Origin: Planctomycetaceae bacterium
GTDB taxonomy: Bacteria > Planctomycetota > Planctomycetia > Pirellulales > UBA1268
Assembly: GCA_011523305.1 (NCBI GenBank)
Contig: WTHB01000185.1
Location: forward strand, 1-40,782
Direction of reading: 5' to 3'
DNA length: 40,782 nucleotides
Shown: piece by piece, positions 24,752-40,782 of the stretch
How the letters are laid out: each line of letters starts with the position of its first letter
How positions within the stretch are numbered: position 1 is the first letter of the stretch
Program-made: the position numbers and the translations under genes
The notes under the pieces: model-generated
Database searches by the model: none
What the model was told of the DNA's origin: nothing
Seen by the model: the letters and a program-made list of their open reading frames with translations, nothing else

Positions 24752-27700
24752 CTAGCGGGCAGGATGGTGCGTAATGGTGCTTGACGTTGGACTGCCGGCT
24801 GCAGTTCGGGTCACCGACGAGTCACGGCCCGAGACCGCCTGCCGCTCGCTGACCGTCTCAAGGTCGTGAACCGCACCTGCTGATTGAGTTCGCACGCGGG
24901 CGAGCAGCCAGCGGCGCCCCAGCACCCAGCCCGAGACGAGCACGAGTCCGCCACCGGGCCAGACCGGCACCCGGGTACCGAGCCAGGCGATCCCCACCAC
25001 TGCCGCCAGCACCGGCCACCACCGCGCCGCAGCGGCCAGACACCTGGCCGGCCTTCGGGTGAGCAGCCACCAGCCGGCCATACCGATCAACAGCAGCACA
25101 AGGGTGACACCAACGCTCGCCAGCCCTGCCGGTGGGGAACTGGCAAACCGGACAGTCAGGGTCTGGTCGACCTCCGTCCCCGCCAGGATGACCCGTTGCC
25201 AGCGAGGGTCACCACGCGGGCCAACCCGCGGCCGCGACTGTTCAGGAAGCGTCATGCCGGCCTCCCCCCAGCTGGCCCAGGCCTCCAGGGGCGACTGTTC
25301 AAGCTGGACAGCCCGGTGTTCACGAAACCGACGCAGCCGGGCGAGCGACTCGCTGGAAGCATCGGGGGCCAGCTGGCCGATTACTTCCGCAAGCGCTGCC
25401 TCTGCTTCGGCACGGACCGCCGTTGCCTCGGCGGCCGACAGCGTTTGGCCGCCCCCACCCACCAGCAGTCGCTGCTCGCTGGAGGAGTCGATCGAGACTA
25501 GGCGGCGCGCCACCGGCAGATCGAGCAACGCAGGCAGCCCGAAGGCAACCGGCTCACCCCGCAGCACCTCATCACCGAGTTCCCCGACAAAAACCACTAA
25601 CAATTCATGTGGCCAGGGGCCAGACCGCAGCGGAATGGTCCAGACATCAGCGGGACCGTCGCGGCCCGGCACCACTGGCTGCACCTGTCGTCCATCAAGC
25701 AGCACCTCGAACAATCGAAACCCATCGGGAAGCCGCAGCCGGAGTTCCGCTGCCCTGGTGATCAGGTCGTAGCGTCCCACTCCCGAGATTCGCCCCCGCT
25801 CGTCAATCACCACCTCAAGATCGACCAGTTCAGCTCCGTTCTGTGTCAACCGCGGTGGGGCAGCAGCGGAGCGGTCGGACGACTGCTCAACAAGCGGCAC
25901 CGCCTGCTCCACCGGCCTGAATCGATATCGCTGGGGAATCACGCCTGCCGGGAGTTCAAGCCGCCAGCCGCCACCGGCAACGAGCTCTCGCCGCAGCGGG
26001 TACGTGGCTTCGGTGAGGGTATCGCTCGAACTGTCTCCACGGACCGCTGGCCCCGCAGCGGCCAGGAGCTCCGGCTGGCCACGGCCCTGAGAATCTTCCC
26101 ACAAAATGGTCATGGGCAGAGGGGCTGCAGTGGTCGACTGGATCAGAGGCAACCGACCGGCATTCGGAAGCGGCTGGTTCCGTCGCGCCTCAACCCGCAG
26201 AAGATAGTGGCCGGCGGCAGGCTGCTGCAGCACCAGCACCTGCGAGCCATCCTCCGCAGCCCGCTGATGGAGATCAACGGTGCCCTCAACGTCCCCAAAG
26301 CGATCCCGCCGGAACACCTGGCAGGATTCGATTTCAAAGCCTTGTGGAACGGCGATGCGGTCGTCCATCCAGACCGTCTCACGGACATCAAGATCTGCCT
26401 CATAGACAAGCGTGGTGGCCCGTTGACCGGCTGCCACCACCAGTTGCTGCCGTCCCCGAATCGCACGTGGCTGGCGGGTCACGGTCAGCCGAACTGGCTG
26501 CCGATGCAGGCTCCACGACCGTCCGCCCACTGCTGCCACGGTCTCTCGGCTGGTCTCTCTGGTGCCAACCATTGACGGCTCCACCAAGGTCTCGACGACG
26601 TCAGTCGACCACCGCAAGGTGGTCTCACCGTCAACCCGCTCTTCGATCTGCGGGGGGGCAACCGTTCCAGGAAAGGCAACGGCAAGACGGTAGTTCCCGC
26701 TGGCTTCAAGCACCGTCTCCCGGTGATCAACCTGCACGCCCCGCAGCCAGACATCGGGTAATGCGACATCTCCAACAACAGCGTTGAGTGGCATGGTGAA
26801 AGGAATCTCCAGCCGCACCGGCCCTGGCACGGGACTTCGTCGATCGACCCGGAAGACTCCCGGCGCAACCTGACTGAGTTCATAGTCAGTCGGCAGGCCC
26901 ACTGGCTGATCAGCGTGGGCGTTTTCCAGCGGCACAAGCCGAGGGTCCGCCTGCAGCCAGAGCGTCGGCAGGATCGCCTTGCCGGGATCGAGTGAAAACC
27001 GTGCCGTCAGCCGACAGTCATCCTCACGCCAGGCAATCTGATTGAGACTGCTGGCCTCGCGAACCACCGACATCAGGGTGGTCTGCGGATCAACCGTTCG
27101 CACCAGCCTGACCCGCTCGGCCGTCGCGAGACGATAGCGGAGCCCACCAGATGCCTCAACCTGGGGGTCCTCCGCAGGCCGAAACTGACCGTCTCGATCA
27201 GCCTGTTCACACCACACGCGACGAGTCTCCTGCAACCCGGCGGCCACGGCCCCACCGCCGCGGTACAGCAGCGTGGTGGCGGGTGAGATGGGCAGCCGTA
27301 GTTCAGTCACCTCAAGATCGCCCCACCGTGTTCGCGCCGGCTCCACCGGAACGGCAACCAGGTGCCGGCCTGCCGCTGGCAGGGAAACCGTCAGCCGGCG
27401 GCGGTCAGCCGACACCGCTGCCCGCACAACGCCACCATCCATACGAATCGGTCGATCGGCGTAGCGGCTCTCGGTCGGTGCCTGATCAAGCGGCAGCACC
27501 GTGGCGGCATCGGATTCGACCAGCAGATTGATCCACCAGCGTTCGTCACCCGCGTTGTTGCCCCTCGGCTCCGGGGGCATGACCTCAACCCGACAATCAA
27601 GGATGCGGACCCCCGAACGCACAGAACCTGTCTCGGTGGTTGCCAGCACCCGGAACAACGACTCCGGAACGAGGGCCGTCGTCTCTCCCTCAACGGGTGT

Positions 27701-30700
27701 CAGGAAAACCCGCACGGGCTGCTCCGCTGCCAACGCCGGCCCAGCGGCAAAGGCACAAAGCACAACCAGCCCTGCCTGCAACTGGCCCGCACGACGGATC
27801 GCCCCCAGCCGAACCATCGTCACACCAAGCCCACCCCAGAGGACCGCCCGGGCGAGCATGTCTGCCGGCTCGGGTACCCAAAGGGCCGCCACCGCCGCAG
27901 CGATCAAGGTTGTCAGCAGCAGCCAAGTGCGTGTCCATGGAATCAACGCCGCCACGGCCGCCGTCATCACTGCCACCAGCACCACCACGCTCGCAAGCAG
28001 GGTCGAATCAATCAGCAGGAACGATGCCTGACGGTAGCGGCCGGCCACCGGCACAAACTGCCTGCTCGTCAACGCACGATCAATTCCGCTCTCGACTGCT
28101 CCCGGTGACGCCCCCCGCTCAGCGGCACCCAGGAGCCGGGCTATCCAGTCCACCGGAGGCCGGTTCCGTTCCCGAAAACCACGCGGCGCGGCGACCATGC
28201 GAACCGCTGCCGGCAGCAGCATCTGCCACTGTCTGGTCAACGTCGGGGTATCGAGCGTGGGAATATCAGTCGTCAACCGCCAGAGGCCAACCGACGGCCG
28301 CGCCATGCTGACCGAACGCACGACCAGCCGCACCCGGCGCTGTCCGTCTGGAAGATAGACCGGCAACTCACTTGCCTCGCCAGCAGGCAACGGCAATCGC
28401 TCTCCATTCACCGTGACACCAAGCAGCCGGTGGCTGGCCGGCACGGTCAGGAGCACGCTCGCCCGGCCATCGTTCTCAAGGGCATAAGAGGTCTCGTATT
28501 CGGCCGTCGCCGATGCAGCACACCGGACGGTCGTGGTCTCGTGCCAGATCCAGCAGCGGGGTACCGGTCGCTCTGCTGCCGGCAGCGGTTCCAGTTCGGC
28601 CGCTGGGCCGGCTCCAGCCAGGGCCGCTGCCTTGTCGTAGGCGAACTCGGCAAGCGTCTCGAGGGGGCCCTCTCCCGGAAGATTCGCCGGCAGTTCCCGG
28701 AGCCGGGCATTGCGAATGTGCGGCCGATCCTGGCCCACCGACTGAATCACAAGCCGCCCGGTGGTCTCCTCGGCTGCCTCCACCCAGGCCAATGGCACAG
28801 GCAGAACCCCCGTAAATGGCCGGGAGGCGGTCGCCCGGATCGTGGTGGTGCCGGTGACCGGAGGTGTCAGCTCGATCAGCCACGCCCCGGCGGCTTGCCG
28901 AGCCGCCGGGGCTGCAGCCTTCCGGGGGGGCGGCGCCACAGCCTCCTGTCGTCGCGCAAAGACGGTTGTCTCCCCCGCGGTCAGCAGCGACCAATCAAGG
29001 TCACCGACCGCTTCAGAAAAATGGACGGTGAGGGCATCGAGTTCCCCCTGTTGTGGCTGGCAGGTGAAACTGAAGGTCTCGCTGACTTGCTCGCCCCGAA
29101 TCGTCAACCGGGTTTGAGCCTCCACCTTGAGCGGTGGCCGCCGACGCAGAAAGACAAATTCACATGGCGGTGCCAAGCGGCCGGCCGGCACCCGTTGCCG
29201 CCACGCCCCTGCCTCAGCCAAGAGGGTCAGCCGAGGATCAAACGGCGGCGGCGTCTCGGCGGCAGCATCGGCCACCAGCGTTGTCTCCGGACTTGTCCGC
29301 AAGTCGATCCAAACCTGGCCGGATGCCTCTCCCTCCAGTTGCACCATGTCGGCCGCCACCGCCTGGAATCGCCCGCCGGCGGGAACACCACGCCGGTGCC
29401 CACTAATGCGAAGCCGAAGGTCCCGGGCCGGTGTCACTGCCACCGGCAGATCAAGGATGAGGCGGTCTCCGCTGCTGCCCCGCACGACCTTCCATTCGTA
29501 TCGGGTTCCGATCAGGTCGGCGGCTTCGTCACGCACACGATCTGCCTCCAATCGCTCATCGACCTCCGCATCATCGGCAGGCGGGAGCAGATCACCAGGG
29601 AGAAGTGGCTCAACGGCATCGATCAACCACTCCGGCCCAATCCGAGCCTCTAGGCGGTGCACGCTGCCGCGTCGGATGCGGATGTCACAGGCTGCCCTGC
29701 CGATGAGTGCCGCCGTGGTGACATCAACGGTGGTCACACGGGCAATATCGAACTCCGGCTGGCGGGCTGCGACCGCCACCGTCACCCCACCCCCAGCCTG
29801 CTGCTGCTCGAAGGCGAAGCCGCCGGTGGAGTCATCAGCCGGCGAGACAGTCCGCAAAGCTGACGCCTGCCCGGGCCAGTGAACGGCGGCAGTCGGTGGA
29901 ACCGCCAGCCAGCGAGTGGAATCAACCTCGGCAAGTTGCATCTCCGAGTCAACCTGCACCCGCATTCCCCCACCTGCCCACCACCTGCCAGGCAGCCCAA
30001 TGCCAGGGAGGTGAACGGTCCGCTTGAGGAGTCCCGTTCCCGCGATGACGCCACGGACCCTCAGCGGCCAGTCTGTCCCGACGGCCGCCACTGGCAGTTT
30101 GATCGAGACCTTCCCGGAGGCTCCGGGCACCAGTTCAACCGGCAGCGTCCCCGCGGCCCCTGGCGGCTGCACATGGCCGCCCGACAGGGTGAGTTCGGCA
30201 GCACATCGCAGCGGAATGGTCCTCCCGTTCCAGACGGTCTCGGGGAGCAAAACGGTTTCGATCTGGGAGGCGCGGCGACCGATGCCTACGTTCGACCACA
30301 TCGTGAGGCGATCCCGCGGAGGTGCGGCGACCTCCAGTGCGAGGGCTGCCCGCGGCCCAACGGTGAACTGCCAAAGCCGACGGCCCTCCCGTCGTTCCTC
30401 GGTGACAGGCTGCAATTCGGCAGGCTCGCTGCCGGCAAGCCGCGGCTCCAAGCCGGCCGGTAGGTCGAGCACGAGTGTGGTGGCCAAGGCTGGCACCAGC
30501 GGCAACTGGAACGCGTATTCAGGCTGCCCGCCCGCCAGCGGTGCCGCCTGGACAAGCGGCTGCGTGGCCCGCAGCGGTTGTGCATCAACCAGAGCAGTTA
30601 TCCGACCAGCCCCCGGCACCGACAGTTCCAGACTCCCATCGGGAAGCCCACAGAGGTCGACCTCAAGGGCCTCACCGGCATCGTCCGGCCTGCTCTGCTC

Positions 30701-31195
30701 AGGATTTTTCCTGGCGGCCTGCCAGCGGCAGTCCCGCAACGGCATCTCACCCAGGGGCAGCGAACTGCCCGCAAGGGCTGCGGATACCTCGAAGCTGATC
30801 TGGCCACGCAACCAGCCTGCCTCATCAAGCCGGGCTTCATACCGAAGCCGCTCGGCAGCCGGGCGTGGCAGACTGCCGGCCTGCCGCCCGCTCCTTAACG
30901 ACAACTGCCGCACCGCCTCTTCGAACTCATCCAAGGCCATGGGGATGTACCGCCCCCCATCTCCCGAGACATCGGCCACCCGGCCCGGCGGCACATGCAC
31001 CCGCACAAACGGCAAGGGAGCTGCAGGGGCATTGAGTGAGGCGACCGCCTCACCAACAGACGGGGTCTCAACCACCGGTGGCGTCAGCGGCTCGTCCTCA
31101 CCTGGAGCCGCCTGACTCGCCGAGATCAGCAGCACGAGCAGACCGAGCCCCAGGAACAGCCTCTGGCTCAACGGAAGACCGGCATGCAACCCCAT
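24752..31195 (-). CDS. Giant exported membrane protein, 2147 residues, tandem two-module architecture, unknown function
   Basis: I do not recognise a functional family. A signal peptide (about 1-29, LGLGLLVLLISASQAA) leads into roughly 1000 residues with a beta-strand-like alternating pattern, then about four membrane segments (about 1058-1155). The last of these ends in GPALAAEQP, which looks like a signal-peptidase site. A second beta-rich region of about 860 residues follows and ends in two or three membrane segments (about 2023-2095) and a short polar tail. Each half has a strand-rich segment beginning NGERLPLP or DGRQVQPV just before its membrane block. ATG 31195 has GGGAG 8 nt upstream. 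It lies 11 bp after the stop of a 1227-residue protein of similar design. No enzymatic motif was found; a scaffold or secretion-related envelope role is only a guess. Confidence 0.85.
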   Translation of the reverse strand: MGLHAGLPLSQRLFLGLGLLVLLISASQAAPGEDEPLTPPVVETPSVGEAVASLNAPAAPLPFVRVHVPPGRVADVSGDGGRYIPMALDEFEEAVRQLSLRSGRQAGSLPRPAAERLRYEARLDEAGWLRGQISFEVSAALAGSSLPLGEMPLRDCRWQAARKNPEQSRPDDAGEALEVDLCGLPDGSLELSVPGAGRITALVDAQPLRATQPLVQAAPLAGGQPEYAFQLPLVPALATTLVLDLPAGLEPRLAGSEPAELQPVTEERREGRRLWQFTVGPRAALALEVAAPPRDRLTMWSNVGIGRRASQIETVLLPETVWNGRTIPLRCAAELTLSGGHVQPPGAAGTLPVELVPGASGKVSIKLPVAAVGTDWPLRVRGVIAGTGLLKRTVHLPGIGLPGRWWAGGGMRVQVDSEMQLAEVDSTRWLAVPPTAAVHWPGQASALRTVSPADDSTGGFAFEQQQAGGGVTVAVAARQPEFDIARVTTVDVTTAALIGRAACDIRIRRGSVHRLEARIGPEWLIDAVEPLLPGDLLPPADDAEVDERLEADRVRDEAADLIGTRYEWKVVRGSSGDRLILDLPVAVTPARDLRLRISGHRRGVPAGGRFQAVAADMVQLEGEASGQVWIDLRTSPETTLVADAAAETPPPFDPRLTLLAEAGAWRQRVPAGRLAPPCEFVFLRRRPPLKVEAQTRLTIRGEQVSETFSFTCQPQQGELDALTVHFSEAVGDLDWSLLTAGETTVFARRQEAVAPPPRKAAAPAARQAAGAWLIELTPPVTGTTTIRATASRPFTGVLPVPLAWVEAAEETTGRLVIQSVGQDRPHIRNARLRELPANLPGEGPLETLAEFAYDKAAALAGAGPAAELEPLPAAERPVPRCWIWHETTTVRCAASATAEYETSYALENDGRASVLLTVPASHRLLGVTVNGERLPLPAGEASELPVYLPDGQRRVRLVVRSVSMARPSVGLWRLTTDIPTLDTPTLTRQWQMLLPAAVRMVAAPRGFRERNRPPVDWIARLLGAAERGASPGAVESGIDRALTSRQFVPVAGRYRQASFLLIDSTLLASVVVLVAVMTAAVAALIPWTRTWLLLTTLIAAAVAALWVPEPADMLARAVLWGGLGVTMVRLGAIRRAGQLQAGLVVLCAFAAGPALAAEQPVRVFLTPVEGETTALVPESLFRVLATTETGSVRSGVRILDCRVEVMPPEPRGNNAGDERWWINLLVESDAATVLPLDQAPTESRYADRPIRMDGGVVRAAVSADRRRLTVSLPAAGRHLVAVPVEPARTRWGDLEVTELRLPISPATTLLYRGGGAVAAGLQETRRVWCEQADRDGQFRPAEDPQVEASGGLRYRLATAERVRLVRTVDPQTTLMSVVREASSLNQIAWREDDCRLTARFSLDPGKAILPTLWLQADPRLVPLENAHADQPVGLPTDYELSQVAPGVFRVDRRSPVPGPVRLEIPFTMPLNAVVGDVALPDVWLRGVQVDHRETVLEASGNYRLAVAFPGTVAPPQIEERVDGETTLRWSTDVVETLVEPSMVGTRETSRETVAAVGGRSWSLHRQPVRLTVTRQPRAIRGRQQLVVAAGQRATTLVYEADLDVRETVWMDDRIAVPQGFEIESCQVFRRDRFGDVEGTVDLHQRAAEDGSQVLVLQQPAAGHYLLRVEARRNQPLPNAGRLPLIQSTTAAPLPMTILWEDSQGRGQPELLAAAGPAVRGDSSSDTLTEATYPLRRELVAGGGWRLELPAGVIPQRYRFRPVEQAVPLVEQSSDRSAAAPPRLTQNGAELVDLEVVIDERGRISGVGRYDLITRAAELRLRLPDGFRLFEVLLDGRQVQPVVPGRDGPADVWTIPLRSGPWPHELLVVFVGELGDEVLRGEPVAFGLPALLDLPVARRLVSIDSSSEQRLLVGGGGQTLSAAEATAVRAEAEAALAEVIGQLAPDASSESLARLRRFREHRAVQLEQSPLEAWASWGEAGMTLPEQSRPRVGPRGDPRWQRVILAGTEVDQTLTVRFASSPPAGLASVGVTLVLLLIGMAGWWLLTRRPARCLAAAARWWPVLAAVVGIAWLGTRVPVWPGGGLVLVSGWVLGRRWLLARVRTQSAGAVHDLETVSERQAVSGRDSSVTRTAAGSPTSSTITHHPAR

Positions 31196-31206: not shown

Positions 31207-34200
31207 CTACGAGGTGACGGCAGACTGGGTGACGTCACCTGATTCATTGACCTTGGCAGAAGGCACATTGATCACCAACGACCCATCGCCCCCGGCCCGG
31301 GTCACCGAATCAGGGCGATGATCAAACCAAGACACTGGTTCGCCCGCACGCACAAAGCGGCCATCCACAAGGGTCCGCCACCTGGTGACCGCCGCTGCAA
31401 GGGCAGCCAACAGCAGCCCTGGGAGGGACGCCTGCGTCACCAGCACCGTCGTCAGTGGAACGATCGCCATGCCAATCAGGAAGCCGCCGGCCAACGCAAT
31501 GAACAGCCACCGCCCCAGTGACCAACGCATCGAGAGCAGCAGACCTCCCACCAGGGGCAGGCCGCTGGCAGTGAATACCAGCAGCCACCACGGCACGAAC
31601 CAGACCCGCACTGCAGCCGGTCCGCCAACGTCCCAAAAGACCAACCGTTGTTCTGCCGCTCGGTCAGGACTCGCCAGACCGTCTCCTGTCAGGTGCGTCT
31701 CCTCACTGACCGCTGCGGCGACCCAGTCAGCAAGATCTGTCGCCGAGAGACGGGGTACCGGCTGGAACCCGTAGCGTGTCCATCCCCAGGCCTGCTGGCT
31801 GGTCCAGCCGCGGGGACCAGCAAGCATCGCCAGCTCAGCCGGTGGCACGATCTCCCACGCAATCTGCCGATAGATCGTTCCTGCCGGCAGCGCTGGCCGC
31901 TGGAACATCACGCCGTCTGGCAGGGGAAGCACGCCGGCCAGGGTCGGCCGAAGACGGGGCTGCCGAACCTCGACTTCAACCAGGTGCGTCCCCCCCTGCA
32001 GCAGTTCCACATCGAACCGACCACTCGCATCGTTGACCTCCTGCCAAACTCCTCCATCAACCCGAACTCGTCCTGCCGGCCGACTGCTTCCCTCAGGCAA
32101 GGCTGGAGCGGTCGAGTTCGCGATCGGCACGAGCAACGTCAGCCGTTCGGAAGAACTGGTGACCGCATACGCCCAGCGATCTATCCGCACCCCACTGCGA
32201 ACCGTTGTGCGAACCCAGGCTGCTTCAACCACAGCCGCCCGTTCCACATCTTCCTCCCGCCGTGAAAGTGCCACGTCGATGAAAGTGCGGGGCTCACTGG
32301 CGTTCCAGGTGCGACCCAAGCCGATCGCCTGAAGATTTCCTTCCCGGCCCCAGCGGTCATCCCGGACATCGATCGCAAAGCCTCCCGTCTCGGCAAGCGT
32401 CACCGTCTCTCGACCAACGGCGGATCCCTCCGGAATCAGTAACGGGACCGAGAGGGCAACGGTGGTCTCCTCGGGAATCTCAGGCAACACCTGGCGATAC
32501 CGCACCATCAGTTCCCCAATCCCAAGCAGGGGCTCGGAAAGAACCGCCCGCACGGTTTTCAGGGCCCCAGTTTGCGTCTCCCGTGGCTGGGCCACTGGAT
32601 CGCCGTCGCTGAAATCTGCCGCCGCCGGCAAGCGCTCTGCTGCGGCATCGGCTGCCGTGAACACCTCTGGGGTAAGCAACTCACCGGCCTGGCGAATCTC
32701 CAGGCTGCCGGAATCGAGCACGGTCGCTGGCACCTGCCACTCCACAAACTCCAGCGGTACGTAGGCCACATCGAGCCGGATCACTTGATTCACCGATAGT
32801 CCGGTCGCCGACACATCAACCTGCGCGGCAACGCTGGCATCAACCTGGCGGCTGAGAAACCGGCGGGTTGCGGCAAAGATGGCCTCGCTCGCCTCGACCC
32901 GATAGGCCATCCGCAGCAGATCCCCACCGGCCCAATCAAGTGATGTCGCTACCTGCCGACTCATCCCTTCAATCAGTTCGTTGTCAGGAACCAGTTCAAT
33001 ATCGGCATCGGAAGTGATCACGACATTGCCAGGACCGACCAGATCAGCCTGCGGCACCGGCGTGGTCCAGTGAATGGTGTCGTGCGATCGATCGACCACC
33101 TGACTGCACCGCAGTTCCACAACAACATCGCCAACGAGTGGCTGGAGAAAAGGGACGACGATCTCACCGTCCTCCACCGAAACAGCAGCCGCATCAACGA
33201 CGCCAGCAGGCCCAACTTCCTCAACCTCCCATCCGGGAAGACTGAGGGCCACCCGCTCAGCCGGCACGCCGCGAATGGCCGCCCGCAGCCGGACATCGAG
33301 TTCCAGCCGATGGGCGGACACGTGATAGCGATACTCCGGCTCAATCACCGTGCGGCTGCTGCGGGACCGCACCCGAAGCGGCAAGGACGCGGGCTGGGCA
33401 TCGTAGGCAAAAGCGGCCACGAATCCGGGCCGTTGGCTTGCCGCCGGTGCATCGACCCGCCGATTGCCAGCGCGGGGCTCCCAGTCGACCTGCCAGTTGC
33501 TATCGGTAAATACGCTGGTGCGGCCCCACTGCCGCCACGCCGGCACACCGCTCACCGCAAACCCACCAGCGTCAAAGGGAGTGCCGCCCGAGGCGTTGAT
33601 CACCCGCTCGCACGACAGTTCGATCTCGGCAACCCCGTCCCGAACATCGTCAAGCCGAACGATCACCTGCCGTGCATCCGGCGAGCCGCGTTGCTGAACC
33701 AAGCTGCCCTGCCGACCAACCGCCTGCAACGTCACCCGGGGTGGCAGTGAGATGGTCACTTGCCGCAGACCATCGGGAATCGAAGCCAACCGCAACACAG
33801 TGTCAATCCGGGCAATCCGTCCGTCGATCCGCACCTCCGTGTCAGCACTGACCTCCGGAGCCTGCTCAGCCGTAGCAACTGCCATTGTGCGGTCAGCCAG
33901 TTTGACCCGAGTTGGCCCCACCAAGCCCGCGACCGTCACCTCGGTCCCTGATTCTCCGTCACCCGTTCGTGGTTTGACCACGGGAACCAGTGCCCGTGGG
34001 TCAAGGCTGACGTCTGGCTGCCTCCGACTGCTCAGGATGGTCAGTTCAGAACTGGCTGCCGCCGGTAGTGTCAGCATGAAAAGGTCACGGTGTTCTGCCA
34101 GATCAACCGGAATCTGTCCCTGCAGCACCAGCGTGTGCCGCCCCCACTCAGCCTCGGTGTCCGATGATGTGACGGTGTCTCCGGCAGCCTCACGACCGTT

Positions 34201-34890
34201 GAGCCAGGCGAGAAAACCGCCCTCCCCTGGCTGCCGTGGCCCCGCGAAAGCACCGTCTGCCACCACCGCCGTCTCGTCGCCCTGACTGCCCTGAGCGGTG
34301 GGGGACTGATCGATGGTCAGAATCACCTGGCCCGTTCCGGTTGTTTCAGGAGCCGCGGCAATGACCAACTCAGGGAGCTTCAGCGGCAGCATCACCCACC
34401 CCGGCCGAGTCTGCCGTAGGACGGCCTCGACCCGCACCGCTGCAGTCCCTCGATTGGCAGCGGCAGCCTCTGGCATGGTGACTTCGACCCGCAGCTGCTC
34501 GAGGACTGCCCCCGGCAACTCCGGCAGACCGGGTAGCCCCTCCCGAAGCCGGATCAGATCGACAAAATCGCGGTAACGAAAGCCGGGAACAGGCACGAGT
34601 CCACCGGCGTCGTCCTGCAGGTAATAGAGTTCCGGCTCGACTTCGCGAATCGGCGGCACTGCCTCGCGGTCCTTCGGCTCGAGCGCCGGCGTTATTCCAG
34701 ACCAAAACACCGCCAAAGCGGCAGCGAGCAGAGCCCACTGCCACGAGCGGAGAGCAGCCCTCCGTGACGCGATCCTGAGGCTGTTCGAAACGGTGGTTTC
34801 CACGACCTGGGTGCCGATGAGAGAGAGCGAGAGTTTTCGGGTTGCGCAAACCCGGAGACTCTTTGAACCTACCCCGCTTCCAACCGGCAT
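31207..34890 (-). CDS. Large exported membrane protein, about 1227 residues, unknown function
   Basis: I do not recognise a functional family. A signal or anchor segment (WQWALLAAALAVFWSG, about residues 50-65 from ATG 34890) is followed by about 1000 residues with beta-sheet-like patterning. About three membrane segments end it (about 1093-1170, WFVPWWLLVFTASGLPLVGG onward), with a polar tail. The segment before the membrane block (VDGGVWQEV ... YRQIAWEIVPP ... AGPRGW) resembles the equivalent segments in both halves of the downstream giant protein. The start is uncertain: ATG 34890 clears the upstream gene, while GTG 34803 would give a more normal signal peptide. A frame open to 35100 is rejected because it overlaps the phosphatase gene. 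Confidence 0.8.
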   Translation of the reverse strand: MPVGSGVGSKSLRVCATRKLSLSLIGTQVVETTVSNSLRIASRRAALRSWQWALLAAALAVFWSGITPALEPKDREAVPPIREVEPELYYLQDDAGGLVPVPGFRYRDFVDLIRLREGLPGLPELPGAVLEQLRVEVTMPEAAAANRGTAAVRVEAVLRQTRPGWVMLPLKLPELVIAAAPETTGTGQVILTIDQSPTAQGSQGDETAVVADGAFAGPRQPGEGGFLAWLNGREAAGDTVTSSDTEAEWGRHTLVLQGQIPVDLAEHRDLFMLTLPAAASSELTILSSRRQPDVSLDPRALVPVVKPRTGDGESGTEVTVAGLVGPTRVKLADRTMAVATAEQAPEVSADTEVRIDGRIARIDTVLRLASIPDGLRQVTISLPPRVTLQAVGRQGSLVQQRGSPDARQVIVRLDDVRDGVAEIELSCERVINASGGTPFDAGGFAVSGVPAWRQWGRTSVFTDSNWQVDWEPRAGNRRVDAPAASQRPGFVAAFAYDAQPASLPLRVRSRSSRTVIEPEYRYHVSAHRLELDVRLRAAIRGVPAERVALSLPGWEVEEVGPAGVVDAAAVSVEDGEIVVPFLQPLVGDVVVELRCSQVVDRSHDTIHWTTPVPQADLVGPGNVVITSDADIELVPDNELIEGMSRQVATSLDWAGGDLLRMAYRVEASEAIFAATRRFLSRQVDASVAAQVDVSATGLSVNQVIRLDVAYVPLEFVEWQVPATVLDSGSLEIRQAGELLTPEVFTAADAAAERLPAAADFSDGDPVAQPRETQTGALKTVRAVLSEPLLGIGELMVRYRQVLPEIPEETTVALSVPLLIPEGSAVGRETVTLAETGGFAIDVRDDRWGREGNLQAIGLGRTWNASEPRTFIDVALSRREEDVERAAVVEAAWVRTTVRSGVRIDRWAYAVTSSSERLTLLVPIANSTAPALPEGSSRPAGRVRVDGGVWQEVNDASGRFDVELLQGGTHLVEVEVRQPRLRPTLAGVLPLPDGVMFQRPALPAGTIYRQIAWEIVPPAELAMLAGPRGWTSQQAWGWTRYGFQPVPRLSATDLADWVAAAVSEETHLTGDGLASPDRAAEQRLVFWDVGGPAAVRVWFVPWWLLVFTASGLPLVGGLLLSMRWSLGRWLFIALAGGFLIGMAIVPLTTVLVTQASLPGLLLAALAAAVTRWRTLVDGRFVRAGEPVSWFDHRPDSVTRAGGDGSLVINVPSAKVNESGDVTQSAVTS

Positions 34891-34970
34891 GCCCAGCAAA
34901 TCCGCTGGAACCCGGCCGGAACCCCACTTCCAGCGACCGGACGATCGGTACGAACCGCACCGGCCACCGC

Positions 34971-35834
34971 TCACCGGCCGGCGAGCAGGCGTCCGAGCCC
35001 TTCTGCCACCACCTGGTTGGCACCGGCCACGAAGGCCGGCCGCTCCAGCGACACCGTTGCTAGCGGCGGGGTGCCAGCCGGATCGTCTGCGTGGCGACAC
35101 GGCAGGATGACCGCTCCGGCCTCGGCAGCCACCAGTAAGCCAGCGGCGACATCCCAGCAGGCGATCCGCCGCACCCAGAATCCATCGAGGCGGCCAGCAG
35201 CCAGATAGGCCAAGTTGATCGCCGTCGACCCAGTTCGCCGGACCGAGTGCACCTCGGGAATGATGGCGAGGAAATCAGCCACCGCGAGTGCCCCAGCATC
35301 AACATGTGGCGGGAAACTGACCGCCACCAACGCATCGGCGAGGCTTTCCGGAGAGGCAACCGAAAGCGGCACGCCGTTGAGCCGAGCGCCTCCTCCCTGA
35401 ATCGCCGTAAAGCATTCATCGGCAACCGGGTCGTAGATCGCACCGGCCAGCACGCTGTTCCCGCTGGCCAACCCCACCGAGACACAATAGGCCGGAAAAC
35501 CGTGAACGTAGTTGCTGGTGCCATCCAGCGGATCGACCATCCACCGTAAAGCTGGTCCTGGCTCTTCCGACTCACCCTCTTCACCGATGAACCCGTGCGT
35601 CGGAAAGCGGCCCAGCAGAATCTCCCGAATGGTCTGCTGCGCTGCAAAGTCAGCCTCAGTAACGAGATCCTTCGGCCCTTTCTTCGAAATGGCAAACCGA
35701 CCCTGCCAGTCCCGGAGCACTTCCCCACCGGCTCGGGCTGCCGTCTCTGCCAACTGCCCGTAGGCCTGCAGGTCCGCCGCTGGAGGACGGGGAGACGCGG
35801 TAGCTTCCGCTGGAACAGTCTGCGAGTCTCTCAT
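34971..35834 (-). CDS. Inositol monophosphatase-family phosphatase
   Basis: The 287-residue protein shows the full metal site of the family: DLVTEAD (56-62), GEEGE with Glu85/86, DPLDGTSNY (101-109) and WDVAAG with Asp228. It hydrolyses a small sugar-type phosphate such as inositol monophosphate, though relatives act on histidinol phosphate or PAP. ATG 35834 has AGGAGG 12 nt upstream, a long spacer. The first 20 residues are Pro/Ala-rich and look disordered. It precedes the two giant-protein genes on the same strand (about 80 bp gap to ATG 34890) and could share their transcript; a functional tie is not evident. Confidence 0.93.
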   Translation of the reverse strand: MRDSQTVPAEATASPRPPAADLQAYGQLAETAARAGGEVLRDWQGRFAISKKGPKDLVTEADFAAQQTIREILLGRFPTHGFIGEEGESEEPGPALRWMVDPLDGTSNYVHGFPAYCVSVGLASGNSVLAGAIYDPVADECFTAIQGGGARLNGVPLSVASPESLADALVAVSFPPHVDAGALAVADFLAIIPEVHSVRRTGSTAINLAYLAAGRLDGFWVRRIACWDVAAGLLVAAEAGAVILPCRHADDPAGTPPLATVSLERPAFVAGANQVVAEGLGRLLAGR

Positions 35835-35971: not shown

Positions 35972-36820
35972 ATGCCTGACGATTCTGGCACCGCTTCCTG
36001 TGCACCGAAGCCCACGCCCCTGGCCTGGCGGCCCGCGCCGCCCCATGAGACCCCGGAAAAGCTGACGTGGCAGTGCGGGAGCGGTGCAACGGCCGGACGG
36101 CTGGATCTCCGGCAGCCCTACCACGGCATTGCATTTGACACCGGCAGGAGCGATCTGCTCAGGCTGCTCGGGGTTCGGTTGTCACCCTCTCAAGCAGCGG
36201 CCTCCTCACCCGTTGACGGCTGGGTTCGCGCGGCAGATGCCTTCGGCGTCTACGAGCCGCACGACAGCCGCCGCCTGCGAGTCACTGCGCAGTGGCGACT
36301 TGAGACACCAGCCGCGGCCGTGCGGGCAGAAATCTGCGACACCATCGCAATCGAGCTGGTGCTCTCAGCCCAGACGTCCCGAGGCACCAGTGCCGGCACA
36401 CTGGCCGTCGAATGTCAGTTCGCCAGCACTGAACTGCTGGTCGGCTGGTGGCAGGACTCGCAGTTGCGCTGGGCCGAAGGAGACTCTCTGGAGTCCCTGC
36501 GGACCACCTGGAATCGTCTGCCGCCGACGGCCGTCTGTTGCCTGCTCTGCCGCGGGGTGGTGGCTGACCAGAGCCTGGCAGTCTGCCTCCGGCGGGATGA
36601 GGTCCGGCACGTTCTTGCCGCCGCCCTGCCCCCCCCATTGGTTGCTCCCGGGCAGCCGCGTTCCTATTGCCTGACCAGTTGGTGTTTTCCGACGCTCATT
36701 GAAAAGGGGGTGCTGCACCGCAGTCGCCTCCGGGCCACCCTCGGCACCAGCACTGCTGACCGGGAATGGGCGTCCGAAACCGCTGCCGCCTTCGCGGCAG
36801 AGCCACCGCTTTTGCAGTAG
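35972..36820 (+). CDS. Protein of unknown function, 282 residues
   Basis: I do not recognise this protein. It has no signal peptide, membrane segment or nucleotide-binding motif. Base composition and codon use match the neighbours. A Pro-rich N-terminus (about 1-30) is followed by an apparently beta-rich, mixed sequence with several Trp and Cys residues (CCLLC near residue 190). WVRAADAFGVYEP and IELVLSAQTSR look like the conserved core. ATG 35972 lacks a Shine-Dalgarno site and begins 137 bp from the divergent phosphatase. It lies 158 bp upstream of the SbcD/YhaO-like gene on the same strand and may belong with that pair, but position is the only evidence. Confidence 0.65.
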   Translation: MPDDSGTASCAPKPTPLAWRPAPPHETPEKLTWQCGSGATAGRLDLRQPYHGIAFDTGRSDLLRLLGVRLSPSQAAASSPVDGWVRAADAFGVYEPHDSRRLRVTAQWRLETPAAAVRAEICDTIAIELVLSAQTSRGTSAGTLAVECQFASTELLVGWWQDSQLRWAEGDSLESLRTTWNRLPPTAVCCLLCRGVVADQSLAVCLRRDEVRHVLAAALPPPLVAPGQPRSYCLTSWCFPTLIEKGVLHRSRLRATLGTSTADREWASETAAAFAAEPPLLQ

Positions 36821-36978: not shown

Positions 36979-38184
36979 ATGTACGACCTCGTGTTTGCCG
37001 CCAACCCGGCACTCGATAGTGCCCTCGCCGAACCAGAGGGTCTGCCCCCGGCGTTGGCCCAGCGGCTGCGACAGGCACCGCTCACCGCCCTCACGCAGGC
37101 GTACCAGATGGCCCGCGAGCACCATGCCCGCGGGCTGGTGCTCTGCGGCCAGATCCTCGCCCCGCTGCGAGCAAGTCCCGCACAGGTCGTCGCGGTACGA
37201 CGATTGATCCTTGAGGCCGCTGCCACTGGTTGTGAAACGGTCTGGGTGACCACCGATGCTACCGCCCCGCGTGAACTCCTCCGGATTCTCGGGGAACCCG
37301 AGGGGCTTGGATTCGCAACCCCGCTGACGCCATGGACGGCCACCATTCGAGCGGCAACGGTTGAACTCTGGGCAGTTGCTGCCGCCGATGACACGGAGCG
37401 AGCCACGGCGTCTGCGGCAGCCACCGCACTCCACCGCCGCATTCTGGTCGGCGGAGACTCAGGCCTTGAGCCGCACGCCGCCGCCCAACGGGTGCTTCCA
37501 GCGTCAGTTTTAAACTGGCCCAACACGCTGGCCGTCTGGGCAACTGCCACGAATACGACACTCCCGGCTGGCGTTCTGCGGCTGCCCACGCTGCAGCCCC
37601 GATCCCGCCAGGCGGTCGGTGCCGGTGCCTATGGGCTCACGCTCTATCAACCGAGTGAAGCTGCAGACAACACCGGCAAGACGGCTCGGCAGAGCGACGG
37701 CTGGCACCGCCTCCCTACGGAGCAGGTCTGCTGGCGGAGCCTCCAGGTTGAGTCGGCCGACGGTGACGCCGCCGCAGTCGCGGAGCAACTTTGGGAGGTG
37801 CTGTCGCCGCCAGCCGCAACTGCTGCTCACCCTGCCCCGGCGACACCGCCTGAGCCACTGACGCTGGTCGACTGCCAGATTGCCTGCGGAACCAGCATTG
37901 AACGCCGCATTGAAATCGGTGCCAGTGCTGCCGAGGCCACCCGGCTCCTTCGAGAACGCTGTGCTGCCGCTGCCCCCACTATCTGGTGTGAGCGAATTGC
38001 GGCTTCGGCCGACGAATCGCTCGCAGCCTTGGGGCACAGCCGCTCGGGTGGACAGCCCGGCACGAGCAACTCATTCACCTCCGCCCTGGCCGACATCGTC
38101 ACCGAAAAGGAGGTCGGCGGCGGCAGCGATTCCTGCGATCGGGAGGCCGCCTGGCTGGCTCTTGAACTGCTGGAGGCCGACTGA
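36979..38184 (+). CDS. Degenerate SbcD/YhaO-like (Mre11-type) metallophosphoesterase, active site lost
   Basis: The 401-residue protein sits directly before an SbcC/YhaN-like ATPase gene, where such loci carry the SbcD/YhaO nuclease. The backbone of that fold is readable. AANPALDSAL (7-16) aligns with the AADLHLDSPL motif, LVLCGQIL (53-60) with the VLLAGDIL-type strand, VWVTTDAT (88-95) with the xxVxGNHD strand, and VWATATN (186-192) with the WALGHxH strand. LQPRSRQAVGAGAYGLTL (205-222) matches the region after it. In each case the metal ligands are gone: D and H of DxH, D of GD, NHD of GNHD, and both H of GHxH. I infer a catalytically dead partner. AGAGG precedes ATG 36979 by 6 nt. The C-terminal half (250-401) is Ala-rich and variable. 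Confidence 0.75.
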   Translation: MYDLVFAANPALDSALAEPEGLPPALAQRLRQAPLTALTQAYQMAREHHARGLVLCGQILAPLRASPAQVVAVRRLILEAAATGCETVWVTTDATAPRELLRILGEPEGLGFATPLTPWTATIRAATVELWAVAAADDTERATASAAATALHRRILVGGDSGLEPHAAAQRVLPASVLNWPNTLAVWATATNTTLPAGVLRLPTLQPRSRQAVGAGAYGLTLYQPSEAADNTGKTARQSDGWHRLPTEQVCWRSLQVESADGDAAAVAEQLWEVLSPPAATAAHPAPATPPEPLTLVDCQIACGTSIERRIEIGASAAEATRLLRERCAAAAPTIWCERIAASADESLAALGHSRSGGQPGTSNSFTSALADIVTEKEVGGGSDSCDREAAWLALELLEAD

Positions 38185-38195
38185 ACGGCTGCCGG

Positions 38196-38213
38196 TCGCT
38201 GAGGACTCAGCGA
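38196..38213 (+). other. Perfect 7-bp hairpin between the phosphoesterase-like and ATPase genes
   Basis: TCGCTGA and TCAGCGA pair around a GGAC loop, 12 nt after the first gene's stop and 43 nt before the next ATG. It could separate the translation or stability of the two messages. No T-run follows. Confidence 0.4.
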
Positions 38214-38256
38214 TCAGTCCCCTTCCACCTGCATCCCCTGTGTCTGGAGAGCGTCG

Positions 38257-40782
38257 ATGCATATCGAACGGCTGGAAATCGAAACGTTTGGCGGCCTTGA
38301 AGGCGTGACCATCGACGGCCTCGGCTGCGGTGTTCAGGTCATGCATGGCACCAACGAAATCGGCAAGACGTCACTGCTCGAATTCGTCAGGGCCATCTTC
38401 TTCGGCTTTGAAGGGCTTTTTCGACGGGGGGTCCTCGATCCGCAACGGCCCTGCAGCGGCCGTCTGTTCGTCTCCCTCGGCCGCGGTGCCCGCAGCAATC
38501 GGGAAGTTCAACGGTTCATGATCGAACGTCGGCACGAGGGCCCTGGCCTCGCCAGCCTGACGCAGGCCAGTTATGAGGATGGCATCGTCGGCCTCGGTGG
38601 TGATGAGGGCGACGTGGTCACGATTGAGCGGCTCGATGACACCGAACATGCCGCCCAGCGGGTGTACCTCCAAGATCTCGTCGGTGACATCGACGAGAGC
38701 ACGTTCACCAACGTGATGGCCTTTGGTCTCGACGAACTGCACGAACTCCGCACCCTCGAGCCGGAAGGCTGCGGGAGCCGCCTCTATGAACTGGCCAACG
38801 GTCTCGACCGGTCACGGGTAGCCAGCACGCTGCAGCACATTGAAGAGGCGATTAGGCGGCAGCAGGGAGACGGGCAGGACGCGTCGCCGCGTGACACGCT
38901 CCTTCGACAACGCCAGGAACTCCTCACCGAAATCGAGGCTGATCAGACAGCGGTCACGGTGGGCGATTTGTTCATCGAGCAAGCACGACTGGAACGTGAA
39001 GCCGACAGCCTCACCGAGGCGGTCACGCGTGCCCGCCGGGCCGAAACGCTGGCCCGGGACGCCTTGCCGCTCGGCGAGTTGTTCACCGCGTGGCGAACCA
39101 CGGCTGCCGAACTGGAGTCGCTGAAGAAGGTGGCCCTCGTCCACCCCGACTACGACGGCTGGCGGCAGGATCGCAAACGACGAAAACGGGCAGCGCGGCT
39201 GGCGGACAAGCGGCGGCATGACCGGCGGCGGTTGGCCCGTCAACTGGCGGCGTTGCCCGCTGAGACGGTGATCTGGGAGAAACGGGCGGCGATCACCAGC
39301 CTTTGCGATGAACGCCCCCATCTGGAGCGGCTGGTCGCCGACACCAGCCGTGCCGAAGCCCACGCCCGGCTGGCAGCCCGCCGCTTTGGTGAACAGGTTG
39401 GCCTCTGCGGGCTGTCCAAGCTGATGCCGCTCGAGCAGGCTGACACAGAAAGCGATGGCATTGGCGTGCTCCTTCCCGAGGGGCTGTCGCTCTCCTTTGG
39501 CCCCCTCCGGAACCGAGCCCGTGGATGCAAGGCAGCGGCCCGGGCGGTCACGAAGGCCCGCAAGCGGGTTGCCCAGGCCAAGGCACGGCTCGAGCAGGCG
39601 AAATCCCGAGTCGAAGGTGCCGAGAACGCCCTCGGCGGCCTCACGCTCACAGCCGCCATTGAGGCTGCCAACGAACAGGCCACTGCCCTCCACAAGCGGA
39701 TCACGCTCGGCGACCGCCTCGATGAACTCAAACAGACGACCGGGCGGCTCGAGCAGGAGATGGCCCAGCAGTTGACGGCCCAGGTGCTGCCCTTGGGCTG
39801 GCTGGTCGGCCTCGGTGCCGTCTTCGTGGTGGGAGCCGGCATGCTCCTTTCAGGCTTACTGCTGCCAACCGTCGTCACCGGGCCGCTGGCATACGTCATC
39901 GCTGCGCTTGGCCTGGCTGGCACCGGCATTGCCTCGGTGATGACGTGGACACTTGACCGCTCCTCCGGCATGCGTCTCGACGAGACCCGCCGGCAGCACG
40001 CCCTCGCTCAGCAGCAGCAGGCCGAGACAAGTGCCCAGTGCGAGGCGCTGGAAAAAACCATTGATCAGGCTGGCAGGAGACTCGCCAGTGGTGCCACCGA
40101 AACGTCTTCGGCTCGCCACACAATGGCAGCCGAGCAGGCTGGCGGCGTCCTCCATCGCCAGGCCTCGTTGGCTGATGCCGAGGTCGTCCGGCTTGAGCAG
40201 TTGGCCGGTCGTGAAGGCTCCCTTGAGGTCTACAGCAATCGACTCGCGGCAGCCCGAAGCGAACTGAAGCGAGCAGGGGAACGAAAGAAGAAGGCGATCA
40301 GTCGCTGGCGGAAGTCGCTGGAGAGCCGCGGCCTGCCTGCCACGCTCAGCCCTGCTGAGGTCTGGCGGATCGGAACCCATCGTCACGAACTGCTCACGCT
40401 CGACGATGATCGTCGCCGGCTGTCCGATGAAGCCCGTCACAAACGCGAGGAACTCACCGCCGCCGCGCGGCGAATTGACGCCGTGCTGGTGGAATGCGAC
40501 CTCGTGCCGGAAGGCTCGCCGCTGGACCATCTGCAACTGCTTGAGGACCTGCTCGATGCTCAGCGAAGGGGGCATGAACAGCGCCTGGCTCTGACCCGCA
40601 AACTGGAACGGTCCCGGCTGCGTCATCGCCAAGGATTGCGACAACTCAAGGCCTGCGACCGGAGCCTGCAGGGCTGGCTCGACCGCTGGGAGGCAGCCGA
40701 CGAAGACACCTTCCTCGCCTGCGTCGACCGGCGGCCTTATTTCCAGAACCTGCAACAGGAAACCGAACTCGCCGAACGGGCC
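38257..40782 (+). CDS. SbcC/YhaN-like (Rad50-type) AAA ATPase with internal membrane hairpin (3' end outside window)
   Basis: The frame runs open to the window end, 842 residues so far. The N-terminus has IERLEIETFGGLEGV and the Walker A motif GTNEIGKTS (31-39), the pattern of SMC/SbcC-type ATPases, and AFGLDELHELR (about 165) is typical of the YhaN group. Long helical, Arg/Glu/Ala/Gln-rich coiled-coil regions follow (about 190-510 and 570-842). A hydrophobic hairpin interrupts them at about 512-567 (WLVGLGAVFVVGAGMLLSGL, then VIAALGLAGTGIASV). The Walker B and signature motifs must lie beyond the window. GGAGAG lies 5 nt before ATG 38257. It probably works with the preceding phosphoesterase-like protein as a DNA- or membrane-linked SbcCD-type complex. 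Confidence 0.88.
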   Translation, partial: MHIERLEIETFGGLEGVTIDGLGCGVQVMHGTNEIGKTSLLEFVRAIFFGFEGLFRRGVLDPQRPCSGRLFVSLGRGARSNREVQRFMIERRHEGPGLASLTQASYEDGIVGLGGDEGDVVTIERLDDTEHAAQRVYLQDLVGDIDESTFTNVMAFGLDELHELRTLEPEGCGSRLYELANGLDRSRVASTLQHIEEAIRRQQGDGQDASPRDTLLRQRQELLTEIEADQTAVTVGDLFIEQARLEREADSLTEAVTRARRAETLARDALPLGELFTAWRTTAAELESLKKVALVHPDYDGWRQDRKRRKRAARLADKRRHDRRRLARQLAALPAETVIWEKRAAITSLCDERPHLERLVADTSRAEAHARLAARRFGEQVGLCGLSKLMPLEQADTESDGIGVLLPEGLSLSFGPLRNRARGCKAAARAVTKARKRVAQAKARLEQAKSRVEGAENALGGLTLTAAIEAANEQATALHKRITLGDRLDELKQTTGRLEQEMAQQLTAQVLPLGWLVGLGAVFVVGAGMLLSGLLLPTVVTGPLAYVIAALGLAGTGIASVMTWTLDRSSGMRLDETRRQHALAQQQQAETSAQCEALEKTIDQAGRRLASGATETSSARHTMAAEQAGGVLHRQASLADAEVVRLEQLAGREGSLEVYSNRLAAARSELKRAGERKKKAISRWRKSLESRGLPATLSPAEVWRIGTHRHELLTLDDDRRRLSDEARHKREELTAAARRIDAVLVECDLVPEGSPLDHLQLLEDLLDAQRRGHEQRLALTRKLERSRLRHRQGLRQLKACDRSLQGWLDRWEAADEDTFLACVDRRPYFQNLQQETELAERA

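Follow-up and report, generated by a model that had tools for sequence, protein, structure and literature searches.

A gene pair at the end of the window (the whole of contig C68, 40,782 nt, from a 3.5 Mb draft genome) encodes a 401-aa protein with the predicted fold of the Mre11/SbcD nucleases and none of their nine active-site residues, followed by a Rad50-like ATPase. The loss of the site is an old, order-wide trait of one paralogue, confined neither to this genome nor to its genus. The reading favoured here, with somewhat better than even confidence, is that the pair is a membrane-anchored, ATP-driven clamp or tether of the Mre11-Rad50 kind (YhaO-YhaN type), in which the former nuclease subunit serves as a non-catalytic scaffold. 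The features of the locus are collected in Table 1.

Table 1. Features of the gene pair and its upstream neighbour. Coordinates are window positions; residues in brackets are the P. furiosus Mre11 equivalents.
Feature	Coordinates	Strand	Basis
282-aa protein, upstream neighbour	35972..36820	+	Upstream tblastn match, 20 loci of the family; without Pfam family
Mre11/SbcD-fold protein without active site, pseudo-nuclease subunit, 401 aa	36979..38184	+	AlphaFold model, PDB fold matches, 0/9 residues, purifying selection
Former motif I, DxH: N9 (D8), P10, A11 (H10)	37003..37011	+	Alignment to intact homologues
Former motif II, GD: G57, Q58 (D49)	37147..37152	+	Alignment to intact homologues
Former motif III, GNHD: T92, D93 (N84), A94 (H85, the catalytic His), T95 (D86)	37252..37263	+	Alignment
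Former motif IV, His: V157 (H173)	37447..37449	+	Alignment
Former motif V, GHxH: A188, T189 (H206), A190, T191 (H208)	37540..37551	+	Alignment
C-terminal helices, aa 363-400, conserved, putative ATPase-binding part	38065..38178	+	Model, invariant residues, VIA alignment
Rad50/YhaN-like ATPase, 842 aa, truncated by contig end	38257..40782	+	Pfam AAA_27 above cut-off
Walker A of ATPase, GTNEIGKT, aa 31-38	38347..38370	+	Pattern invariant among relatives
Predicted membrane hairpin mid-coiled coil, hydrophobic aa 522-540 and 544-562	39820..39942	+	Hydropathy (window and relatives), relative's model

Fold of the 401-aa protein

The 401-aa protein matched no Pfam, NCBIfam or PADLOC family above the cut-offs, PF00149 and TIGR00619 included, and a profile of 30 family orthologues reached SbcD chains among the PDB sequences only at E 0.11-0.18. 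Among its relatives in the order, some reached the PF00149 cut-off and none that of TIGR00619. An AlphaFold2 model built from the alignment of the 30 orthologues (pLDDT 85.3, pTM 0.83) retrieved Mre11/SbcD structures in 50/50 of the matches listed by Foldseek against the PDB, and VIA-align gave Z 14.4-16.7 (about 16) against Mre11/SbcD over approximately 256-319 residues, with the capping domain covered. A chance likeness was rejected because other calcineurin-like phosphoesterases scored clearly lower (Z <=12.8). Structure prediction, Foldseek and VIA-align therefore agree with the original prediction of an Mre11/SbcD/YhaO phosphoesterase, and the Mre11-type fold with its capping domain is confirmed at the level of the model; where that prediction had also allowed for a search returning no calcineurin-like phosphoesterase, Mre11/SbcD was what the search returned. 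The modelled chain ends in helices 363-379 and 385-400, which carry invariant residues, and the VIA alignment with the SbcD of the SbcCD head complex extends to residue 401, suggesting that the two subunits bind each other.

Loss of the active site

The active site was defined by nine residues, numbered as in P. furiosus Mre11 (D8, H10, D49, N84, H85, D86, H173, H206 and H208; motifs DxH, GD, GNHD, H and GHxH), and residue states were read from the alignment to intact homologues. By this measure the window protein retains 0/9. The replacement of the metal-binding residues that had been read from the sequence thus stands, but its register was one residue off in two motifs (GNHD lies at 92-95 rather than 91-94, and GHxH at 188-191 rather than 189-192) and the H173 motif had been overlooked. 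Compared with E. coli SbcD and P. furiosus Mre11, the protein shares the phosphoesterase fold, the capping domain and a gene adjoining that of a Rad50-like ATPase, but differs in its active-site residues and in falling under every Pfam and NCBIfam threshold; by its defining site it is outside the Mre11 nuclease family, though by structure it belongs with Mre11-Rad50. The loss of catalytic residues is established here by alignment, and the structural kinship by the predicted models.

Scanning the contigs with the 401-aa protein as query gave no match, and the named relatives were obtained with the ATPase alignment as query; one of them, L185, was left out of the residue counts. Among the 19 copies from the window's family, H10, H85, H173 and H206 were present in none and an Asp at position 8 in 15. 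In 43 copies from other Pirellulales, including the cultured Rhodopirellula sallentina, R. rubra, R. europaea, R. baltica, Stieleria tagensis, Neorhodopirellula pilleata and Adhaeretor mobilis, H85 and H206 were absent throughout (with Gly at position 206 in 42), N84 and H173 were mostly gone (kept in 2 and 15, respectively), and D8 (40), H10 (36), D49 (37), D86 (40) and H208 (34) were largely kept. The site was intact in no copy of either set, so the close orthologues with an intact set that the original prediction had named as a refutation were not found.

In the P. furiosus Mre11 structure, one metal is bound by D8, H10, D49 and H208, and the second by D49, N84, H173 and H206. With this ligand assignment, the contrast between the 43 order copies and the family points to a stepwise loss, in which the catalytic His and one of the metal sites went first, and the window's family later shed most of what held the other metal. 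Substitution of this His alone (H85S) in P. furiosus Mre11 has been described as inactivating, for both exo- and endonuclease activity (PMC8824468).

Retention, spread and intact paralogues

The gene for the 401-aa protein was found in 64/72 genomes of its family, with internal stops in no match, and dN/dS between close pairs was 0.10-0.24, indicating purifying selection; the part after residue 250 was usually under tighter constraint than the former nuclease domain. A profile for the order matched 144/149 Pirellulales genomes, many of them twice, a count that pools copies without the site (hereafter dead) and intact copies, with most best scores exceeding by far the scores of the intact copies that were read. 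By alignment, four copies from a different family within the class (L138, L140, L147 and L152) are dead as well, and the loss is therefore probably older than the order and class-wide.

A phylum-wide search revealed a second YhaO/SbcD-like lineage, in which all nine residues were present in 15/15 copies read. These intact genes often share a genome with a dead copy, and they too have a Rad50-like ATPase nearby. The window's own genome carries an intact SbcD-like gene (L151, 9/9 residues) on contig C83, with homologues in 28/34 well-completed family genomes, although the similarity of these varied greatly and the site was read in part of them; the complete genome G488 contains three YhaO-YhaN-like pairs (L138, L139 and L140), one with an intact site and two dead. 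In the nuclease tree a single branch separates dead from intact copies (support 98/89, the branch being found in 98% of bootstrap trees), consistent with a single loss of the site provided that the root lies on the intact side, as is likely. The ATPase tree was less clean, with two changes needed and long branches involved.

The Rad50-like ATPase

A partner ATPase gene was present in 37/37 loci scanned, and full-length relatives of the window ATPase span approximately 1100-1200 aa. The claim that the Walker A motif of the downstream ATPase is intact was upheld, and among the window's relatives the dead-pair ATPases conserve Walker A, the LSRGTRE signature, Walker B and the H-loop; the signature and Walker B of the window ATPase itself fall past the contig end, and their intactness was read from the full-length relatives. 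Among the ATPases of L066-L102 and L133-L152, Walker B reads DD rather than DE whether the pair is intact or dead, with Asp at the place of the usual catalytic Glu in most of this ATPase group, and because intact pairs share it, this is a family trait. With the site lost across the order and these motifs retained, the sequences support the original view of an ATPase kept without nuclease activity.

By sequence, the ATPase profile reached Rad50 (E 3e-4), and in a structure search the heads and arms of a relative's model matched SMC, Rad50 and MukB chains. The dead-pair ATPases resemble Rad50, SbcC and YhaN in having a long coiled coil that interrupts an ABC-type head, together with Walker A, signature, Walker B and H-loop. 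They differ in what lies at the middle of this coil: the zinc hook of Rad50 sits mid-coiled coil, and a search of the dead-pair ATPases for its CxxC motif found none, a predicted membrane hairpin standing in its place. Two hydrophobic segments (Kyte-Doolittle means of approximately 1.9-2.4) occur midway along nearly all dead-pair ATPases of the family and order, with a few above the hydropathy threshold for one segment only, and the model of relative L087 (pLDDT 77.5, pTM 0.39) places helices 513-535 and 543-604 between the coiled-coil halves at low local confidence. From the hydropathy and this low-confidence part of the model, the ATPase seems to be membrane-anchored through the hairpin. Of the roles guessed at originally, membrane attachment gains support from the hairpin, and DNA tethering or sensing is a role that we still only infer.

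The intact YhaO-YhaN-like pairs of the class (L133-L137, L139 and L150) share gene order and, by homology, the two folds with the dead pairs, but keep 9/9 residues and have ATPases without the hairpin, which is also absent from L146, L148 and L151. Hairpin and site loss are not strictly linked, since L138, though dead, has no hairpin, whereas L141-L145, which are deeper pairs with an intact site, do have one. The presence of a hairpin in these deeper pairs and its absence from the intact pairs of the class suggest that the hairpin may be ancestral and was then lost from the class's intact lineage.

Genomic neighbourhood

A gene for a 282-aa protein, preserved across the family, lies directly upstream in the same orientation at each of the 20 family loci matched; it was sought near pairs of other families and not found there, and its product is possibly a third, family-specific component of the pair. 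Further upstream, on the reverse strand, an inositol monophosphatase-like gene and a gene for a 1297-aa protein without a Pfam family (31207-35834) run divergently from the pair, an arrangement conserved within the family, and beyond these, also on the reverse strand, is a 2147-aa open frame (24752-31195) without any Pfam match.

Discussion

The pair probably holds DNA rather than cutting it, as the cutting site has been lost and the Rad50-like motor is intact and seemingly membrane-anchored, although the tethering itself is something that we infer. In such a machine, an ATPase dimer would be anchored in the membrane by the hairpin and would use ATP to open and close its heads around DNA; the two heads would be kept together by the Mre11-like dimer, which would also shape the path of the DNA. 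Such a machine would clamp or tether DNA at the membrane, or sense DNA ends there, and the intact paralogues or other nucleases would do the cutting. For human MRN, a clamp-like sensing state has been described in which the nuclease is auto-inhibited (PMC12446458), which makes a clamp that does not cut plausible as an end state. Evolutionarily, there are two old paralogous lineages, one with a full metal site and, in this class, no membrane segment in the ATPase, and one dead and, in nearly all of its ATPases, with the hairpin; the dead lineage has been left without the catalytic His and the ligands of the second metal, and the window's family then shed most of the remaining ligands.

Several other explanations were weighed. 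The nuclease loss and the membrane hairpin would suit any membrane-side substrate, and the pair might accordingly be an SMC-like membrane ATPase acting on a protein, a lipid or an envelope structure, in which the Mre11-like subunit would serve as dimer clamp; we regard this as unlikely, though less so than the other alternatives, since the heads and arms resemble those of the DNA-acting SMC, Rad50 and MukB proteins and the paralogous pairs retain the nuclease site. Rather less probable still is that the chemistry has been changed and not lost, another phosphodiesterase or phosphatase activity being supported by a metal site that is new or reduced (perhaps to a single metal, in the other Pirellulales). 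The persistence of D8, H10, D49 and H208 in the majority of the 43 copies from other Pirellulales would allow for this, but those residues are mostly gone from the window's family and wholly from the window protein, and the invariant columns of the family contain no new fully conserved Asp/His set.

Lamassu is a Rad50-like defence system, and the ATPase has weak PADLOC matches to LmuB, LeoBC and PtuA, so a part in anti-phage or plasmid defence was also considered. It appears improbable: the best of these matches reach only E ~1e-8 and mostly cover the general ATPase N-terminus, and the near-universal presence of the pair in the order and its conserved neighbourhood in the family are unlike mobile defence systems. 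A strain-specific decaying gene, to which the missing active-site residues might point, was rejected and is scarcely credible given the uninterrupted frames in 64/72 family genomes, the low dN/dS (0.10-0.24) and the order-wide relatives.

Returning to the membrane-anchored clamp, a broader proposal can be advanced tentatively, with slightly less than even confidence: Pirellulales, and probably the class, may run two Mre11-Rad50-like machines, one catalytic, and the other a core, membrane-anchored one that was stripped of its nuclease stepwise (the second metal and catalytic His, then the first metal) to become a dedicated membrane tether or organiser of DNA. No description of this pair was found in the literature, among open-licence papers. 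Non-cutting roles of Mre11-Rad50 have usually been studied through engineered dead mutants, and here a natural lineage, near-universal in an order, has lost the nuclease residues while selection maintains its fold and ATPase, and many of these genomes also carry catalytic paralogues. Genes of the dead lineage should not be annotated as exonucleases. Cultured species, Rhodopirellula baltica among them, make it possible to test directly what Mre11 does structurally and whether DNA may be attached to the membrane in Planctomycetes.
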